Below, one piece after another: positions 23,601 through 63,674 of a stretch of 64,000 nucleotides of DNA (the stretch's first letter is position 1; each line of letters begins with the position of its first letter). The notes under the pieces were generated by a model. The model searched no databases and was not told the DNA's origin. It was given only the letters and a program-made list of their open reading frames with translations. A program made the position numbers and the translations under genes. The DNA is from Pegea sp. RAD2-039 (Eukaryota; Chordata; Thaliacea; Salpida; Salpidae), in the NCBI GenBank assembly GCA_034620365.1, contig JAQGEQ010000048.1, positions 186,001 to 250,000 on the forward strand, written 5' to 3'.

Positions 23601-26038
23601 AACAATTTATTTTTGAAGGGATTACATAAAAGTATGCATCGCGCCACAGCTTTTGATGAAGTCGATTGTTTAAGTCGGAGTATATCCACCATCACTCTCA
23701 ATTGTCAACGATCTGTTGATAATCTTTCCACTCCAAGTAAACTTCCATCGACCTCCGAAAAGTAATTTTCCAACAATTTCTTCTTTTCTTCAATTAACTT
23801 TCATGTATAGAAGCAGTCCTACTGCAGCTTCGTCTCCAGCCAGCTTGTCTTCTACAAAAACCTCCTTGTCGTCATCGAGCACTTTGTTAAAAATCAAAAA
23901 CTCACCAAGTAACATTTTATCACACACTAATCGAACATCTAAATGATGACGTCATCACTTGCAACAGACCAAGAGACTTTATCACTAAGTTTCAATCCGA
24001 TGACCAACAACATCAGATCACCGCGTCAGATGAAGAAGACAAATGGATTGAAGCCTGTGAAGAGTAGGGTCCGAGGTTCGTTTAATTGATCAATTCGATG
24101 TCTTCTTTGAATTTATTTTGTTCCTAAGACTTCCTCACCTCTGTAAGGAACCCAAATCGAAAGTCAAAAGTAAGTAGCGAGTTCAGAAAGCATCTTTAGA
24201 AGATTGAAAGTGATTCTACAGAAGAATTCTGCATTAGAAGAGAGGTCTTCACGCGCTGTATCTTCTACTATCGCTCATTTTGAGCAAAAAACCTTCAATG
24301 CCAATAGAAACACTTGTCAAAGCTTGCGGACCGAGGACCGGGCCTCAACTAGTCGAGGCAGGTCCACAAGTGAAAAGATACTGAAAGATTTGCATATTTG
24401 GAACAATAACAATTCTGGGATAACTTCGCTGCAACGTCGCGCTTTTTATGTCGCTGATCACTGTGAGATGTGTTCCGCATCTCGAAGACTTCACAGCTCA
24501 AAGTTTGACCAAAACGCTTCACTCGATGAACGGCGCGCTAGTTTATCTCTGCGGGAAAAAATCACTCCATTCCGGCGACAATCTGTCAAATCCACTGATT
24601 CCTCACACAATCGACGTAATAGTGTCGACAGCAAAGGTGCTACATCCAACTACAAAGACTGCTCCTGCCCTTGTCATCGTCTTGCCTCTCTCGATTATGT
24701 GACTCCTACCTTCACCAGTAAGTTACTTTTAAATCAACAATTTTATCTAATTTATGTTGCTTTCTGAAGACAAGCAACATGATTGGAGTTCATTTACTGA
24801 TCCTCAGATGGTTGATGATCTGTAAGTTGATCAAGTTATTGAGCGATAAAATGATTTTGAAGACACACATTTGATCACAGAGATCGAGATGGAAGTTCTT
24901 GCTCCTTTCAATTCTTGTCATCTGAAAAAGAAATTATGAAATTACGATACAAAGGGATATGTGTCCCAAACTCAGTTGGCAACTTCTTCAAGGTCCTTGA
25001 TTGGATCAAGATTTGAGCTTTGATTGAATTTCATTTTTAGACATCTTTTGAGCGTGATGAAGATAAAAAAAAGTCTGAAAGCTCTTCATCAGATGATAAA
25101 CTGATCTCGTTTAGTTTCTATGATCATACAACTTTACAAGTGAAAGATCCTATGAAAAGTACGATGAAATCTTGATGATCCCCTCATAATTTGCTGATTC
25201 CACAGAAAATGTCGATCAGTCCAACTTTGAAAATGATCTCCTCGCTGTAGTCAAAGATTTTGATTATAGAAGACAAAGCCACAAACTCCATCACATCAAA
25301 TGTCTCACAGAGTTAGATACTTCGCTATCAAATGATAAAAAGTTGAAAAATCGAAGGAACCCTGTTTTAGTACCTCACAGCTTGCTGAGTGAATCCAGTG
25401 ACGTCAACAGCGCGATCGGTCAGTTATTATTTCTCTTTAATTGTTTTGAAGTAAAAATATTTTTCATGATTTAATTTTAGGTGAAATTTCATCAAGTGAA
25501 ATTAAAGCTTTAGTTCAAGAAGAAATCCACCGCCTTGTCGTCAAATTGGGGTCTTTTGTTGGTGTCAAAATTCGTGAAACTTCATTATTGATGTACTTTA
25601 AATCGTTTAATTGACAAAAAAACATTTTAAAAATTCTTAAAAAGTGGAAAAAGTTGTTCCTTTTCCAAATCAATAATCTCTTTTAACTAAATTACAGCAA
25701 GATATTTAGTAAATATGTTCAAACATTTGAGCAGTTTAAAAGAGAAGCACCCGGACGCTTTCAACTCTGTTGGCTTGTACTGTCAGATCATGGAAGTCAT
25801 CTGCAGTCACCGTTATCGTTTAACTGCTCGCCGTTTCATCCAGGAACTCTTTCAAGACGTCAAATTTTCTGAAGTAAATTTAAGATACTTTTACTGACTG
25901 ACAGCGTCTTTTAATGTTCCTCTAAATCTTTTTATTAATTAACTTTTTTAGGTATACGTCGAGGCTCAAAAATCTTTACAATCAATAAATCTGGTGACTT
26001 GTAATAACAAGTCGGCTGCTTTGCAAAAGAAAACTTAA
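14601..26038 (+). CDS. RICTOR: RICTOR, mTORC2 scaffold subunit, 35 coding exons
   Basis: Obligate partner of mTOR in complex 2, which phosphorylates AKT, PKC and SGK. Exons: 14601-14658, 14853-14900, 15006-15103, 15171-15232, 15293-15424, 15470-15687, 16412-16553, 16785-16883, 16951-17095, 17186-17273, 17800-17957, 18982-19193, 19646-19861, 20198-20279, 20751-20947, 21200-21311, 21365-21489, 21544-21670, 22055-22219, 22431-22576, 22628-22747, 22799-23048, 23191-23373, 23619-23761, 23811-23908, 23968-24075, 24129-24169, 24222-24717, 24770-24821, 24881-24992, 25041-25158, 25206-25418, 25481-25561, 25698-25873, 25952-26038. These give 1635 residues against 1708 in human. Landmarks: NEVERIQAIRLIRKLA, KMAIVSLFRVWAGIF, RDNWRLSENFVAAEGEA, QALDIIDEACDNA, SLWALAHIGSS-type repeats and RRFIQELFQDVKF near the end. 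The Ser-rich exon 28 has basic phosphosite-like motifs (RRQS, RRNS near residues 1309-1325). Introns go down to 45 nt. Confidence 0.97.
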
Positions 26039-46997: not shown

Positions 46998-49907
46998 CTG
47001 TTCAAAATCGAAATATCAAAGTCATGTGGTTAACTTAGAAACAAAATCAATTTTTTTAATTTATATTTTACAGATAAGACATTGGATGCAGAAATAATTT
47101 TATAAAACTATGAAACAGCATATTAGAGCATATCCATGAATTAATTATCTATATAAATAACAGAATTGATTAAGTTAAAGCTTCCAGTATTTCATATTCA
47201 CATAAAAAATACTTTTGGTTAAAAAATATTTATTTATGTTTAATTTATTTAAATTTTAAATATTTTATATAAAATAATTCACTATAGCAATAAACATTTG
47301 CACCTGCCATTTCCAATTTTACTAAATCTAACTTTAATCTACCATAAATGTCAGTTATTTTTATACTTTAATCTTATAAACATTTGTATAAATCCAATAA
47401 AAACCTGGCAACTAATGATATATACAAAGATGTCAATAAAAATAAATCGATGCTTTATTAGAAATTGAGAAAGGTGAGGATATATTGTTTATAGAATTAT
47501 AGAAACTCTTTTTTGAAATTATTTCATCAAAAATTGTTAAATAAACAGCTGTTTTTGTTAATAAAAACTTTGATAAGCTAAATTATTAAACCATATGTTC
47601 AGAAATTTAATTTAAAAATAAGATTAAATAAGACTTCAAAATAGAACTACTTATGACATGGTTTATGACACAGAAAAAACAATATACTTGTATGGAATAA
47701 ATTAATTTTTAGAACTGTAATAAGCCTTTTTATCAACAACAAGGTGTTAATCGCGCGTCTGATGTAGTTATGACAACAAATATAAATCACTCGTGCGTAA
47801 CTTCAACAAAAATGGTTTATGATTAAATTTTCTCTAGAGCTTCTTGAAAAGATTAGGCATATAGAATTAGAATAACTAGATTAATCGATATTTAGATTTT
47901 GTTTAAAATTATTAGATGAATTCAAGAAGTGGAGCAGTCTGTTTCATTTTGTATAAGATATCTAATTCTGCTTTTTCTTAAATCAAATGTTGTTATTTTT
48001 GTTGATGCAATATTTTAGTTAGGAAATTTCAGATTTAAATAATGAGATTTGATAAATAATGTTTATGGTTTTGTTTTACAAAATAAAAGTATATATATAG
48101 TTTGTCAAATCGCAATTAATAATTAAAATTATTTAGTTAAAGTCGAAAAGAAATAAATATGTATGTTTTTATGTTCAAAACAGTTAATCATAAACTCCCA
48201 TATGACAGAAGTTAATCGATGAATGTTAAAATAAATCGAAATTTTACAAATATTTTGTTGTAAACATCCAAAAATGACTACATATGTTTAGTTTTATTTG
48301 CAGAACTTTCTGCTGTGTTATGCTCTTTAATATTTTATACAACAAAAGCAAATTGTTTAAGATTTTTTGATTTTATGGTTACTTGCTTAGCGTATTATTA
48401 TTTAGAAGCAGACCTTTAACATACTAAGTAATCAAAAATAAGAAAATCGAAAAACTCCTTAAAATTATTTAAAGAAATGTTTTAAAATGAATGCTTAAGT
48501 TTCAAATGACGTTAAAAACAATTTAATAAATAATTGCAAAAGTGAATTGAATTATTGATTATAATTAAACTTTTTTGTCAATACATTATCCTAAGATGTA
48601 AAACAGTTTTTAAAAGTAGATTTAAACCCAATTAAACATTTTTCTGATTTTATCACCATGTGGTTGAGCACATTTCTGATGAGCAAAAATCTTTTTTTAG
48701 ATAAAATGTTTTTCATACAAAAATTTCTTTAATCAGCTTTTAGTTTAACGTTGGAAAAATTTTAATAAGATGTAAATATTAAAAAATTTTTAATTGGCTT
48801 TTAATTAAATGTATCGTTACTCTTATTAAATTAAATGATTTTACTGAAATATTTCAATATAATGATTCAAATTTAATGAAAGATAATTTTTTATTTCAAC
48901 CTTTTAGCATTATCAGAACTCATATTTAAAGGTTAATTTGTTTTTTAGCTAGTATCAAAAAGCTTTTTTTCAGTCATTAAAAAATATTGTAACCGCATGA
49001 CGGAGCTACAGAGCTTATAATTGTTTATATTAAGGATGTTATTCTAGGTGAACTTTTTATATTTCATGTGAGAAAAGAGTTTGGTGGTGGTCGGAAGAAG
49101 AAGAAGTAATTAATTAAGTCCCTTTTTGATTTTAACTAAGATTGTTTTAGTAGATTAAAATGCTTTGAGCTTAAAGCAGACTTTAAATTTTGAATTTAAA
49201 TGATTGATTAAAAGACGGTTAGAATTTTAAAGGTTCAAGTTTCAAAATCTTTTATAAATATTTTTATCAAAACAACAATTAAAGCTAAATTAAGTATTTG
49301 AAATTATTTTCAATATTGTGAAATTCAGATTATTAATTCCATTAGTTTTCAGGCTACTTGGCATAAACCTTTTTTCTTTCAGAAATAAAATTTTTTCCAT
49401 CGTAAATCGGTTTAATTATCTTTCAAAACAGATCTCAATCAATCTTAAAATCCTGAATCAACTCTTTGATAATCAATCTTATTTTAATTCTTTGTTTTTC
49501 TTCCTTTAAATTGAACTGACGTTCTTTGGTGACGTCATTCGAAATCTACTTGACAAGATAAAAGTTACACGAAAGACTTTTTGATAGTTTATTGTTTGTT
49601 TGCCTGAGGTACTGATCCGGAAGCTTTCAATCTGTTTAAGGTGACTCCTTCCGATTGTTACAAAATTAAAGTTAAAAATCTGTTTTTTTAGTTAGAATTT
49701 GTTAAGCGGTTAAAAAGGATTAAATTTGATGAATTATTAAAAGATCACTTAGAATCTAGATAAAAATCGATGTTTTTTCATTTGTGGTTAAATAATTTAA
49801 TTGATAAAAAAGTATCAAAAAAGTAGAAGTCAGAATTAAGTTTCAGCTCACCAAATTTCTTCTCATTTTTTTCTCGAATTTTTTAAAATTGTTAAAACTT
49901 TACTAAG
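46998..49907. other. Divergent AT-rich spacer before DAG1
   Basis: It separates the minus-strand cilium-type gene from DAG1. No gene or RNA seen. Composition turns distinctly GC-richer from about 49.5 kb, and the first TGACGTCA palindrome of the DAG1 cluster is at 49530-49537, so the right end is a plausible DAG1 control region. Confidence 0.4.
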
Positions 49908-52695
49908 ATGTTTAGAATGGTAAAACAGTTGCTTAGCAACGCCCAGCTTCTTCTCGTTTGTATTCTTATTCCTGCGGAAGCAATCATCTGTCAACTCTTT
50001 GCTTTTCCCGGGATTCTCTTTAATCATTCGCTTTATGACGTCATAGAAGAAGCTGGCGTGAAAGAGGTGAGATTCTTCTAAGAATGTTTGCCTTCGAAAA
50101 ATTCTTTCATTCAAATTTTCTAATCATAATATTTACGATGCTCAATAAAGCGTGACGACTTTTCGTCGTGATCGCTTTCGCAACTTCCGTTTTGTCAATT
50201 TGTTTAAAAAGATTTTTTGGCGCTTTTACAAAGCTTCAGTGATGACGTCATCATAAATCAAAGTCAGTAGCGATCAACTTTATTTGCACCTCATCACGAT
50301 AATTCTTCGAAACTAGAGCTGCTGACATTGATCGAAAACTGAAAAGCGCGCATGGGGGCTTTCCCTCGCGTCAAATTGAATCGATGTTTTGGCGTCGAAC
50401 AAATTCGGAATTTTTCGAAACATTTTTCTTTTTCAACTGAAACTAAATTTGTCAAAGCGCAAAATTTCCTGATTTCTTCTTTCGCTGTTTTCATCACCTA
50501 TCATCTCGTTGCCATCGCAACTTGTTTATGTCACTTCCAGATCAGCAACCTTCCTGATTGGCTCGTGCATCACCATTCTCGACTTGAGGGGATTCCCGCT
50601 ACGCGTGACGTCATCACTGCTCACCGCATCCACATCACTTTCAGCAACTTTTCGAAAAAACAGTGTGACGTGGTCGTATCCGATGACGTCATCAATTATG
50701 CACGCGCACCACGCAGACGTGGGTTAAGGTGCACGAGCTCAGAACCAATCACAGTAATCGCGATGACTCTGATTAAACCTCCATTAGGAGGCACTGTTGA
50801 GTTGATTCGTTTACTCAGCGGATTGACCAATCAGGAGATAGTTGTGGAGGAAGAAAAGACACGTGGGTCGCATCACTGGTTGCTAAGTGATCCAAGCGCT
50901 GTAGATGAAGCAGTTGATGGACAAGTGAATGTGTGGTGGCCAGTTGCATGTGGTTCAGATACACTGTCTACGGGACAGTTGGGTCGGCTGTTGGAACTTG
51001 TAAGGCAACAGATGCGAGTGGTGAATTGGCAGTTAGGAAGCCGAAAAGACGCGAAAGCGCGATTTGCTGCTCACTCGTTACCGTCCACTGACGTTGGGGT
51101 GAAAATATCATCACGAAGCAAACGTGAAAATGCAATTTGGTCGTCCGGTGAGTCCCCAAGTAGCTTGTCCCATTTGCACAGCTCTACACCGTCAATCCTA
51201 CCACCTGATGGTCACATCAAAGTTCGTCGATCTCAATTGCGTTTTCGCGCTGTTCGCGGCAGCTTTTTCTGGGGTATTGTCCCTGATGGTTGCTTTGAGA
51301 CCACAGGGTTTGAGACCTTCTCCTTGCTACTTATCCCTTTACCTTTCACTGGAAGCGATGACGTCACTGAAGGATCCTGGCTGAAGTTTGATGAGCAACG
51401 CGAGCTGTTTGGAATGACACCGAGTGCAGCTCGGAATTACGTAAGTGATCTTCTTCATCTGATCTTCATTTGAACTTTCTCTTTTTCAGAGCTTTTTGTT
51501 ACAAGCAACCACCACCAGCGGTTTTACAGCTACTTCAGAAATTAACATCACAACTGAAGCAGCAGCATCCACTTTCAATCATCACTTCCTGATCACTTTT
51601 TACAACAAATCTTCTCCTTTCGCTCCCTTAGATTTGAGCAACTGGATGCGACTTCTATCTCGCGCTCTTAACGCTACTTCATTGGTCATATTAGATGTAG
51701 AAAAGAGAAAACAAAAAAGGGACTTTATCGTAAAGTTGGCGGACAACATGGCCAATAAGGACTGCAAAATAGGGCGTTTAGGGCAACTAATGTGTGGCAA
51801 CAGTGTAGGGCTTGGTAGTTGCTTGGTACAAACAAATTTTCGATCCTATTTTCTTCCAAACATTGTGATCGATGACATCAAAGTGGTGACTAACTTAAAA
51901 TCGTGCTTGTCAACAGCAACGACCACAAATTGGGCAGTGACACAGTTGTGGCCCAAATATTTCAAGGTGGAAGCAGAAGCAGGGACGCTAACCCGCAAGC
52001 AGTTGCCTAGAGGTGCCTTGTCTCGTCCAAACTGTACTAAGTTCAAGTTAGTAGATCTTGGAAGTAGAGAGTCACGACCACCTCTTTGGTTGAAAGTGGA
52101 CATTGATACACTGCTAGTACTGCCCTTTATCAACGAATCTCAACTATCTTGGGTGGGAGGGTTAGTAGCATCATGTGGTCACCAGAGGGCGCAACAGGAT
52201 TTAATCTTGAGTATCTACATCAACATCACGAGAAATTTGTGGGAGAAGAACCAAGAAGAGATGGTGATAATGACGATGAAAATGTTTAACTTTAATTCAG
52301 AGGTTTGTGATTGATGACGTCATTTACTAATCATTGATTGTTTCAATTCACAGACTTTTACTGTTCATCATTCACAACGCTTTCTTGCTTCTATTCGTAA
52401 GTTCTATGACGTCACTAACACCTCTAGAATCCTTCTTCATGCTCCACTTGTTGATCCCTTCCGAGTATCTTGGAGTCTTTCTGCATCCGGAGCAACGTGT
52501 CGTGAGCTTAAAAAGCTGCAAAATGATGTCATGGAGCAGAACGGGAAGATACAGAGCAATTTTCAGCTGTTGTTAGTCAGTGATGAATCACGTGACTAAA
52601 TGACTTCATCTTCATCTTACAGTTTGAAAAATCGCGGATTTAAAGTTGATGAAATCGAAGTGGTGGCGACGAAATGCATCGAGGATGTGACGTCA
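49530..52695. promoter_or_regulatory. Cluster of nine CRE-type palindromes TGACGTCA over DAG1
   Basis: The 8-nt palindrome TGACGTCA, the consensus for CREB/ATF bZIP factors, begins at 49530, 50036, 50243, 50606, 50684, 51359, 52315, 52407 and 52688. One copy is upstream of DAG1, two are intronic and six are inside coding exons. The copy at 50240-50253 is a perfect 14-nt palindrome, TGATGACGTCATCA. By composition I expect far fewer than one in this interval. Whether they are bound is unknown; the sequence shows only the motif. Confidence 0.6.
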
Positions 52696-53115
52696 TCAAC
52701 AACTTATTCAATCTTCAATAAGCTCACTTCTACAAGTTCTTCCTCAAGTTCTTCCAGATCTTCCAGCTCTTCAACTCTTATCATTTGCTGCGTGCTCTTC
52801 ATCTTCATTTTACTCATTGTTCTGCTCTTTTGTCGCCTGAAAAGACGACGGGACACTTCGAAATCACGCGAACAAATGTTACAAAGTGGATCGTATCGTA
52901 GAGGAGCTTCGGTTGTATTTGAGAATGATTTGAAATCAGATCGGAAAAAGATCGGTTCCCAAATACTTTTCTATGGGTCATCTGAGACGCTTCATCCGAC
53001 CAGAAAGCGATCTTCAATCACTGATATAACAGCTGGTGGTCCTGAGATTCAAAGACCCCCGCCTCCACCTTACCTGCTCAGACCCCTAACTGCCATTAGG
53101 GATGGCTTGTCGTGA
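49908..53115 (+). CDS. DAG1: Dystroglycan, 5 coding exons
   Basis: Laminin-to-dystrophin transmembrane receptor. Exons 49908-50066, 50541-51440, 51490-52302, 52354-52571 and 52623-53115 give 860 residues (human 895). A signal peptide lies at about residues 5-25. The first cadherin-like unit has AGVKEISNLPDWLVHHHSRL, matching the human AGKEALPSWLHW...TLEGLP. A Cys-initiated S6-like domain follows (about 117-215), then a furin-type RSKR at 245-248. A second cadherin-like unit is at about 284-375, and a third candidate at about 536-600. The SEA-like region ends in the Cys673/Cys715 pair. The membrane helix is 749-767, followed by basic residues, GASVVFENDL as in human GVPIIFADEL, and a WW-binding PPPPPY at 842-847. 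The Gly-Ser autocleavage site seems absent. The mucin region is very short. The first exon was chosen over an open upstream extension because it restores the conserved domain. Confidence 0.93.
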
Positions 53116-54589
53116 TTTATCATTTTGCAAAAGTTTGGCCAATACACAAATTGGCTTCAAACCAAATTGGGTTTTGTGCCAGGTTTGTGTGTGATAGATC
53201 CAACCTTTTGTCGTGGTGTTTACATTTTTCATCAGTTTTTTAAACTATTTTCTTTTTTTTTTGTTTTCTACAATTGTTTACTACAACACCAAGTGATGTT
53301 GTTTGTTTTAAAGCTTTTGTTTTCTCTGCAATTTCCTTTTTATAAAATCGGAAATGTTCTTGTGAATATTGAAAAATGGTTTTCTAACTTTTATGAATAA
53401 TTAATATTCCCAACAAATTTAATCCGACTTTTTTATACATAAATATAATTTCAAATGAGATTATAGTAAACTTTTGAGTTAAAGTTTGGACAAATTTGTT
53501 GACAATTTTTGGTGAATAATGGAATTATTTCAAAAGTTTATTTTCTTTGAGCTATGAGTGTTTCTACAAGAACTTAGTAACACAGAATAAAAATATTTCA
53601 AAAGTTTCCTTTAAATTTTATTTATTATAATTTCTTAAACTTTAAATATTGAAGTAGTAACCTTCAACATTAGCGAAAATCACAGGTATGTTTTCATGTT
53701 GAAATTATAATCCCTGGTGGGAATAAATTTAGCAGTAAAAAAATCTGGTAAATTAGAAAAAAACTCCTCGAGTAATATCAAATATTTCTTAAAAAGATAT
53801 TCAAAAAATAGTTAAAAGTTTGTTTCACAATGTACTCTTTATCCTAAATTCAATATTATTGACACAAAATAAACCCGGTTCTAGCTGTCAACAGCAAAAA
53901 TGTTGTTAGCTAAAAATAATTGTTTAATTTTAGTTACAAACATCCAGTGACATTTATTTAGTTATAAAAGGTCAGTAGTTAGACTTTAGGATTTTAAATA
54001 TCGCAAAAAACCTCTAATTATATTACACTAAATCAAATCAGTTAAAAAACAAGGTTGGCTAAGATAACAAATCTTTCATCAAAGAATGTATAAGATGAAA
54101 ATAAAATAAGATCTTTACTATCATTAAAAAAGCAGATTTTGGATGAATTGCGTGAATAATTGAAATGTTTATAAGAGAAAATTTGATCTGACATCTAGAT
54201 GCTTCAAACAAAATGAAGCAATTTGAAACTTAACATGAGAACTAAGAGAAATGGAATATCGTATAAATAAAATTAGAAAAAAGGTTTATGTAAAAGTAGA
54301 AAAAGAATGATTTTAAGTTTTAAAAATCAAAACATTTTTCCAGAAACAGAACAAATGTTTTTTAAAGCAAACTGGAGCCACGAAAAAGTTAAAGATGTTT
54401 CGATATCATCACCAAATTTGTTCATCATCAATTCATTTGCTAACTTATTTCTTCTTCTATTTTTTTTGTGTCACAAAATATTGTTTCTAAATTCTAATTT
54501 ATTAAAAGCTCTAAAAAGACAACTTAAGATTGCAAGTTAATGATTTATTAGAAACAACAAATTGACTATCCAATAAAGTAAACGAATCT
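53116..54589. other. Spacer between convergent DAG1 and PTCD3
   Basis: It holds the 3' ends of both genes. No further gene seen. The open frames 53125-53400 and 54307-54540 are low-complexity with no family resemblance. AATAAA on the minus strand at 54543-54548 could serve PTCD3. Confidence 0.4.
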
Positions 54590-62841: not shown

Positions 62842-63674
62842 TTAGTGGATCGCTTTGACATATATTAATGAAATATAATTGCTTAATAAAAGTATAATTT
62901 TTACTTATTGAGTTGATCTTCTATTTTGCCTAGTAAGGATATAAGTATTTTGAAATAAAAAAAAGTATATTTATATTAATAAAATTAGAAATCGATTAAT
63001 AAACTTTAAAACTGTTTTCATTTGTTAAAAAGAAATTAAAAAAAGAAAAAAATATGTGAATGTCTGTGGCAATTGAAAAATACTATTAACATAGAATTAC
63101 AGCTTCTGTATTTATGATTATTTTTGTTGACTGTAGCTAAATAAAAGTTTTGAATTTTCATTCACTTAAATTTTTAAATGGTTTTCAAAATGTTTATAAA
63201 AAATTTTAAATATGCAAATAAGGAAGATTACTCGTTTAAGTATCCTAATACTGAATGACACAATAAAGCTAAATAGTGACGTCATAATACTTTGTATAAG
63301 TTTTATGGCCGTTTGTAATTATTAATTATAGTCAGAAATCTTTTTGAAGACTGATCGTATATTTAATATCATTTATCTGATTTATGCTAAATTCATTTGT
63401 ATTTAAAATGAATTTAGATCGCAGCAAGCAAAAATTTATTTATAAAACATCAGAATTGAGACAAACTTCAACTGATAATCATAAAGATCAGGTATTTGTG
63501 TTTTTAAACTTTATAATGTAAACTATATAGCATATACCGTTAGTCTAAAATAGATTGGCATCTGCGCTATTACTTATATGTGTTTGCTACATGTTTTAAG
63601 AATAACTATCTAAGTATCATCGATACATATATACAATTCTTTTGTCTAAACGACCTTTCATTAAATTAAAGCAG
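62842..63674. other. Spacer after the Gla gene
   Basis: AT-rich. It contains one TGACGTCA at 63277-63284. A short frame at about 63,408-63,492 ends in a donor-like gtattt but cannot be joined in frame to the next exon, so no gene is called. Confidence 0.35.

Follow-up and report, generated by a model that had tools for sequence, protein, structure and literature searches.

The 64,000-nucleotide stretch of DNA examined here, hereafter the window, belongs to the salp Pegea sp. RAD2-039 (GenBank assembly GCA_034620365.1, contig JAQGEQ010000048.1, positions 186,001 to 250,000 of the forward strand). It contains twelve copies of the octamer palindrome TGACGTCA, the canonical cyclic AMP response element (CRE; the ATF/CREB site), nine of which lie in or upstream of a single gene with a dystroglycan-like product. 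All genomic counts given below come from one assembly of this single species; the assembly that holds the window (G000) comprises 105,744,746 bases in 387 contigs, and whole-genome counts cover all of it. The features of the window are as follows, with positions numbered from its first letter.

23944..23957, no strand: 14-nt palindrome TGATGACGTCATCA around TGACGTCA (23947-23954); sequence count
25399..25406, no strand: TGACGTCA; sequence count
49530..49537, no strand: TGACGTCA, upstream of the start codon of the dystroglycan-like gene; sequence count and gene model
49908..53115, + strand: host gene of the dense array; five-exon model, inferred splice sites
50036..50043, no strand: TGACGTCA, exon 1, Tyr-Asp-Val-Ile; sequence count and gene model
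50240..50253, no strand: 14-nt palindrome TGATGACGTCATCA, intron 1 (TGACGTCA from 50243); sequence count
50606..50613, no strand: TGACGTCA, exon 2, Arg-Asp-Val-Ile; sequence count and gene model
50684..50691, no strand: TGACGTCA, exon 2, Asp-Asp-Val-Ile; sequence count and gene model
51359..51366, no strand: TGACGTCA, exon 2, Asp-Asp-Val-Thr; sequence count and gene model
52315..52322, no strand: TGACGTCA, small intron 3 (52303-52353); sequence count and gene model
52407..52414, no strand: TGACGTCA, exon 4, Tyr-Asp-Val-Thr; sequence count and gene model
52688..52695, no strand: TGACGTCA, exon 5, Val-Thr-Ser phase; sequence count and gene model
63277..63284, no strand: TGACGTCA; sequence count

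A preliminary description of the window had listed these twelve copies, had put the number expected by chance at about 0.4, and had noted that two of them extend to a perfect 14-nt palindrome. All twelve are found exactly where they were placed, TGATGACGTCATCA is perfect at both 23944 and 50240, and 100 dinucleotide shuffles of the window yield a mean of 0.38 copies and a maximum of 3. Among all 8-mers of the window, TGACGTCA has the highest z score under a dinucleotide model. By the five-exon model, the nine copies between 49.5 and 52.7 kb are divided, again as described, among exons (six), introns (two, at 50243 and 52315) and the upstream region (one, at 49530). Of the six exonic copies, five encode Asp-Val, and the sixth (52688) is read as Val-Thr-Ser. 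This agreement in phase is unremarkable in itself, and weaker as evidence than it seems, because one of the three phases of the octamer makes an in-frame TGA stop, leaving only Asp-Val or [Leu/Met/Val]-Thr-Ser to be encoded. Half-sites, TGACGTGG and TGACGTTG, also occur between the octamers of exon 2, near window positions 50667 and 51089.

The host gene is modeled as five exons (49908-50066, 50541-51440, 51490-52302, 52354-52571 and 52623-53115; inferred splice sites) encoding an 860-residue, single-pass membrane protein that is dystroglycan-like by eye only, with an LPDWL...LEGIP stretch, a transmembrane segment and a PPPPPY tail. The name DAG1, under which the gene was originally presented, was not confirmed: the joined 860-residue model gave no dystroglycan match in Pfam (four weak matches, all below the cut-off) and no match in the PDB, so that the label is one of topology judged by eye. 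A second or allelic copy of the gene was looked for in the assembly, and none was found.

The abundance of the octamer extends far beyond this gene. Genome-wide, TGACGTCA occurs 27,792 times versus approximately 700 expected from composition, a 39.7-fold excess, whereas the reversed word occurs 969 times and AGTCGACT, a CG palindrome of equal composition, 694 times. The 14-mer TGATGACGTCATCA is found 1,972 times, where composition would predict about 0.2 and the number of 8-mers about 9; the reversed 14-mer does not occur. These whole-genome counts are independent of the choice of sample and islands in what follows. A 264-kb sample, consisting of the window and 20 stretches of 10 kb on contig C1, holds 41 copies versus 1.44 expected. 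Nineteen of the stretches lie on a 200-kb grid, and the remaining one (L025) was placed off the grid, where 14-mers had already been listed; without the window the sample contains 29 copies in 200 kb, and without L025 (11 copies) as well, the 19 stretches contain 18 copies in 190 kb versus about 1.0. Equal enrichment of unrelated CG palindromes, named in the preliminary description as the observation that would refute it, was looked for and not seen. Of 24 CG-centered palindromes with four G/C in the sample, only TCACGTGA, which we take to be of the E-box/MiT-TFE type, is clearly enriched besides TGACGTCA (10 versus 1.44, approximately 7-fold; 5 versus 0.47 in the chosen islands, namely L001, L024, L025, L039, L040 and window positions 49400-53200). 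Given the whole-genome counts and the control palindromes, the excess is genome-wide and word-specific rather than a feature of one gene, and the suggestion that the pile-up is special to DAG1 has to be given up: similar arrays are present in a tankyrase, a formin, a METTL18-like gene and many other listed places. The words AGTAACCC/GTAACCCA and ACGACTGT are also strongly over-represented in the 264-kb sample and may mark a dispersed repeat family.

The anatomy of the site was drawn from 62 copies with 124 flanks; these represent 59 sites, since two near-identical loci, L037 and L038, hold the same three. The two loci (on C21 and C37) are inverted copies with 99.25% identity over 3.06 kb, reflecting either a haplotig or a recent duplication. 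Reading outward on both sides of the octamer, the preferred bases are T (0.64) or C (0.24) at the first position, C (0.50) at the second and A (0.58) at the third, giving Y-C-A. The copies have nothing clear in common outside the 14-mer or past about 4 bp from the core. TGACGTCA is therefore an 8-bp core flanked on each side by three base pairs with soft, symmetric preferences, and the lack of any clear similarity beyond the 14-mer argues for a single site rather than a repeat family. A pyrimidine at the position next to the octamer is the preferred ATF/CREB flank, and T or C stands there in 0.88 of the 124 flanks. The Maf recognition element (TGCTGACGTCAGCA), by comparison, is recognized by TGC/GCA flanks; GCA was found in 2 of the 124 flanks versus 37 for TCA. 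When flanks in five islands were oriented by gene strand (assigned by homology, or in L024 by a long reading frame), TGA preceded the octamer (5' side) in 20 of 55 cases and TCA followed it (3' side) in 22 of 55. Because the flank words are equally common on the two sides, the unit resembles a dyad of duplex DNA and not an RNA signal.

Perfection of the core is most striking in the chosen islands, where 21.5 kb hold 60 perfect copies versus 0.47 expected, and words with one mismatch are near chance (13 versus 10.1). Genome-wide, words with one mismatch number 37,125 (64,917 minus 27,792), a modest excess relative to 27,699 for the reversed control (28,668 minus 969) and approximately 21,000 as scaled from the dinucleotide model of the 264-kb sample. 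Sorted by position of the deviating base, one-base deviants of the octamer give ratios of 0.5-2.9 across 12 classes, with small counts and no clear preference for the outer positions. Both the islands and the dense genes treated below were picked for octamer richness, so that the island fold values, and the fraction of filled codon contexts given later, are upper-end figures; their direction is nonetheless clear.

Copies of the octamer are strongly clustered. Pairs separated by 9-38 bp number 5,279 genome-wide, 24 times the uniform expectation. At 176-185 bp and 196-205 bp the excess remains 21.5-fold and 20.5-fold, respectively, indicating that clusters are wider than 200 bp; individual clusters span kilobases. 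Within them, a spacing of 20 bp is preferred (466 pairs genome-wide versus a mean of 176 per base pair). Chains of minisatellite units explain part of this peak (13 of 50 pairs among the matches listed), and the spacing is kept in 9 of 35 pairs lying at least 150 bp from other pairs, among the matches listed (56 pairs, all on C1). Nucleosome phasing was also considered, as seven nearest-neighbor gaps of 176-185 bp were suggestive, and was dropped in view of the genome-wide numbers (1,571 pairs versus 1,501 at 196-205 bp). Local amplification of the site is seen in tandem arrays with TGACGTCA in the repeated unit, whose periods are 20 bp, 33 bp or longer, at C8:368056-368223, C1:3616342-3616567, C1:5276682-5276998 and C1:6114755-6115125. 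L024:6421-7952 is a 1.5-kb minisatellite with units of about 30 bp.

The clusters coincide with islands of elevated GC content. Up to 100 bp away from copies, GC stands at 39-40% and the CpG observed/expected ratio at 0.9-1.2, falling to about 27% and 0.6 at distances of 2-8 kb. When 500-bp windows are sorted by GC, those at 20-40% show a 7-12-fold excess over composition and those above 40% a 100-160-fold excess (22 copies in 28 windows), and copies occur in none of 24 windows below 20%. Isolated copies (n=9) lie in background GC beyond 100 bp, as do control palindromes, showing no kilobase-scale GC peak; GC richness is thus a property of the islands and not of each copy, and the idea that the palindrome itself causes local GC was rejected on the same grounds. 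The dense genes include, besides the window gene, a tankyrase (L040; PDB match at 4.7e-21), a formin (L039; Pfam FH2 at 4.3e-12) and, in L025, a gene matching histidine protein methyltransferase 1 homolog (4rfq, at 2.8e-37), presumably METTL18; a titin-like immunoglobulin (Ig) protein in L003 carries two copies. Elsewhere, the assembly contains a GH6 domain exon at C14:74494 (E 1.2e-4 in the genome search; 2.5e-8 in Pfam), which fits a tunicate, GH6 in animals being known as a tunicate trait. Mitochondrial COX1 was looked for in the assembly and not found; the mitochondrial contig may be missing from it.

Coding copies reveal how the word and the protein are related. Exons of dense or octamer-bearing loci were examined in 23 pieces (2,613 codons, with reading frames set by selected peptides). 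They contain 25 Asp-Val pairs versus 10.3 expected from composition, approximately 2.4-fold, and 17 of these 25 pairs are written GACGTC versus about 2 expected from codon usage. Where the neighboring residues permit the full octamer around Asp-Val, it is present in 16 of 18 contexts; in the Thr-Ser phase, it occupies 3 of 7 [Leu/Met/Val]-Thr-Ser contexts. Sixteen other pieces (2,548 codons) hold 10 Asp-Val pairs (7.7 expected), with the octamer in 2 of 4 permitting contexts and in none of the single Thr-Ser context. In the sequence stretches examined, the Asp-Asp-Val-Ile-type word GAYGAYGTNATH gives 62 finds on the two strands, 57 with the octamer, and because GATGACGTCATC reads the same on both strands and is therefore scored twice, this amounts to 34 of 39 places, translated or not. 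The DNA word dictates the Asp-Val dipeptide, and not the reverse.

Alignments to known proteins further indicate how coding copies arose. Two copies in tankyrase fall in a stretch of 67 residues that aligns to tankyrase-1 (5jhq) without gaps, and the residues there are similar (sdvtk and sdvin in the query versus adlak and leiin), and the two copies in the titin-like Ig domain are both in ungapped stretches. In the METTL18-like gene, an Asp-Asp-Val-Arg copy aligns with a two-residue gap adjoining it. As the alignments of the four testable copies are ungapped, these copies arose through point changes in place and not through insertion of 8 or 14 bp. In the tankyrase gene, two otherwise diverged ankyrin segments (L040:2243-2440 and L040:3760-3957) have in common a tract of about 150 bp, near-identical and gene-conversion-like, which covers the palindrome and has diverged flanks.

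The excess is real, genome-wide, specific and exerted at the level of DNA. Selection or drive acting on DNA rather than protein, as the preliminary description had proposed, is supported by the presence of copies in exons and introns alike, the strand-symmetric flanks, the nearly complete filling of permitting Asp-Val contexts in dense genes and the specificity among CG palindromes. Its further proposal of a bZIP-type (basic leucine zipper) target also gains support from sequence: the genome encodes a CREB1-like bZIP exon (9.2e-20 to CREB1 of 5zko and 6.7e-17 to CREB of 1dh3; 37 of 46 aligned residues identical by our own count), as well as a Jun-like bZIP exon and other bZIPs, and a bZIP dimer is most likely the reader of the octamer. 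It is tempting to suggest, with about even confidence, that TGACGTCA, a genome-wide, highly iterated ATF/CREB-type palindrome, forms bZIP-read intragenic platforms, in which octamers are kept by selection for binding. Each site would be read as duplex DNA by a dimeric bZIP of the CREB/ATF class, neighboring sites, preferably about two helical turns (20 bp) apart, would act together as intragenic platforms, and the platforms would serve to keep chromatin open or unmethylated, or to control transcription. The octamer would also be exposed to the usual CpG methylation of animals. Natural selection for binding, and not for the encoded Asp-Val, would keep the octamers perfect. Several observations sit uneasily with these binding platforms. 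Coding exons are part of the arrays, an unexpected place for ordinary regulatory sites; the near-complete use of permitting Asp-Val contexts looks more like drive than like selection favoring some sites; octamer density in the loci examined for bZIP matches is close to the genome average; and, given the modest genome-wide excess of one-mismatch words, the restriction to perfect copies seen in the chosen islands does not hold everywhere. The 3 of 7 filled Thr-Ser contexts tell against selection for binding and against drive alike.

Such drive, in which repair or recombination favors the perfect octamer over its one-base variants, allowing it to accumulate wherever protein function permits, is possible, if on balance doubtful. 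Biased conversion could supply the route, for example, if a bound protein shields its chromosome from breaks or if a repair system templates the site. In the first case, the bound octamer would protect its own chromosome from meiotic breaks and hence be copied onto the homologue, a mirror image of the hotspot paradox. Drive would account for copies in exons and introns alike, the 16 of 18 filled contexts, the islands rich in perfect octamers with one-mismatch words near chance, the steep rise of the excess above 40% GC, and the near-identical tankyrase tract, which includes an intron with the 14-mer; the genome-wide surplus of one-mismatch words over both the model and the reversed control, and the isolated copies devoid of a kilobase-scale GC peak, are harder for it to accommodate. 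A more specific version, advanced here tentatively as rather unlikely, is an animal counterpart of the cyanobacterial highly iterated palindrome 1 (HIP1), with a DNA-level process driving a bZIP-type palindrome into nearly every permitting Asp-Val context of dense genes and writing Asp-Val, often Asp-Asp-Val-Ile, into proteins.

The other explanations fare considerably worse. A splicing or export element read in transcripts would fit the many copies in gene bodies, some of them in introns of about 50 bp, but the core is perfectly dyad-symmetric and its flanks are balanced between the two sides, making an RNA-level signal quite improbable. Still less credence can be given to the spread of a 14-bp palindrome through the genome as a short element, mobile or inserted; a spreading short element had been entertained in the preliminary description. 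The 1,972 perfect 14-mers and the copies amplified within minisatellites are in its favor; most 8-mers, however, are not extended to 14 (1,972 of 27,792), the 62 copies have no clear sequence in common beyond the palindrome, and the four tankyrase and titin-like coding copies show no insertion into conserved frames, although the METTL18-like copy has its two-residue gap beside it. Least probable of all is that GC-rich genes with Asp-Val make the word by chance. Copies do concentrate at 40-50% GC, and Asp-Val is itself raised in exons of dense genes, but the excess is 100-160-fold even at 40-50% GC, other CG palindromes except TCACGTGA are near chance, introns also carry the octamer, and GACGTC is used for Asp-Val far beyond codon usage. 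Taken as a whole, what stands of the preliminary interpretation is DNA-level selection or drive on a bZIP-type target, and what falls is the spreading element and the special status of DAG1.

If selection for binding or drive on this scale is confirmed, an animal genome, even in its coding exons, can be overrun by a transcription-factor site at tens of times the chance level, and motif counting, codon-bias studies and work on the ratio of non-synonymous to synonymous substitution (dN/dS) in such species become a trap. The genome would also offer a natural test bed for site drive versus site selection, with the prediction that octamer alleles are favored over one-base variants in frequency or transmission. 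The dense array described in a Ciona enhancer region suggests that the trait may be wider among tunicates, and thus testable in a laboratory animal (PMC11001920).

CRE sites themselves are well known, and the octamer is identical to the sequence described in PMC1796609. CREs are bound by CREB/ATF bZIP dimers, with a central CpG that is critical for CREB and whose methylation can inhibit binding, and in Ciona intestinalis, as in fly and worm, they lack positional bias towards the transcription start; the account, as far as its passages on CRE go, concerns positional bias rather than genome-wide excess or coding saturation (PMC1796609). Only a few 8-mers are predicted to be conserved upstream elements in all three of worms, flies and mammals, and TGACGTCA is one of them (PMC551538); promoters of ascidian muscle genes are described as enriched in CRE-like sites (PMC6589888). 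In Ciona notochord enhancers, one enhancer region is reported to hold ten TRTGACGTCA copies, the functional relevance of which was judged possibly variable; there, the motif is presented for a few enhancers and not as a genome-wide or exonic feature (PMC11001920). No report of a genome-wide or exonic TGACGTCA excess in any animal was found in a literature search, judged by title or the start of the abstract among the matches listed. A different parallel is provided by the M26/CRE meiotic hotspots of fission yeast, in which the CRE-like ATGACGT is read by the Atf1-Pcr1 dimer of the ATF/CREB type, can work inside an open reading frame, and promotes breaks nearby; the full CRE in ade6 was reported to be neither bound nor active (PMC9775316). 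As an indirect indication on breaks at TGACGTCA, the nine isolated copies examined lack a kilobase-scale GC peak.

By analogy, the nearest system in kind is HIP1 of cyanobacteria, the strongly over-represented octamer palindrome GCGATCGC, sometimes extended as GGCGATCGCC, as outlined in PMC4390886. Its function is described as unsettled, a repair model has been proposed, and it has been linked to orphan methyltransferases for the inner sequences (PMC4390886). The likeness lies in a single octamer palindrome in strong excess, at times symmetrically extended (PMC4390886). In Pegea, too, one such word stands far above expectation and others do not, with TCACGTGA also raised, and it is present in coding and non-coding DNA alike, with six exonic and two intronic copies in the window gene and exonic copies in the tankyrase and titin-like genes. 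The differences are that HIP1, as portrayed in PMC4390886, is prokaryotic, whereas the Pegea octamer inhabits an animal genome, is a CRE word, and is strongly clustered in GC-rich genes.

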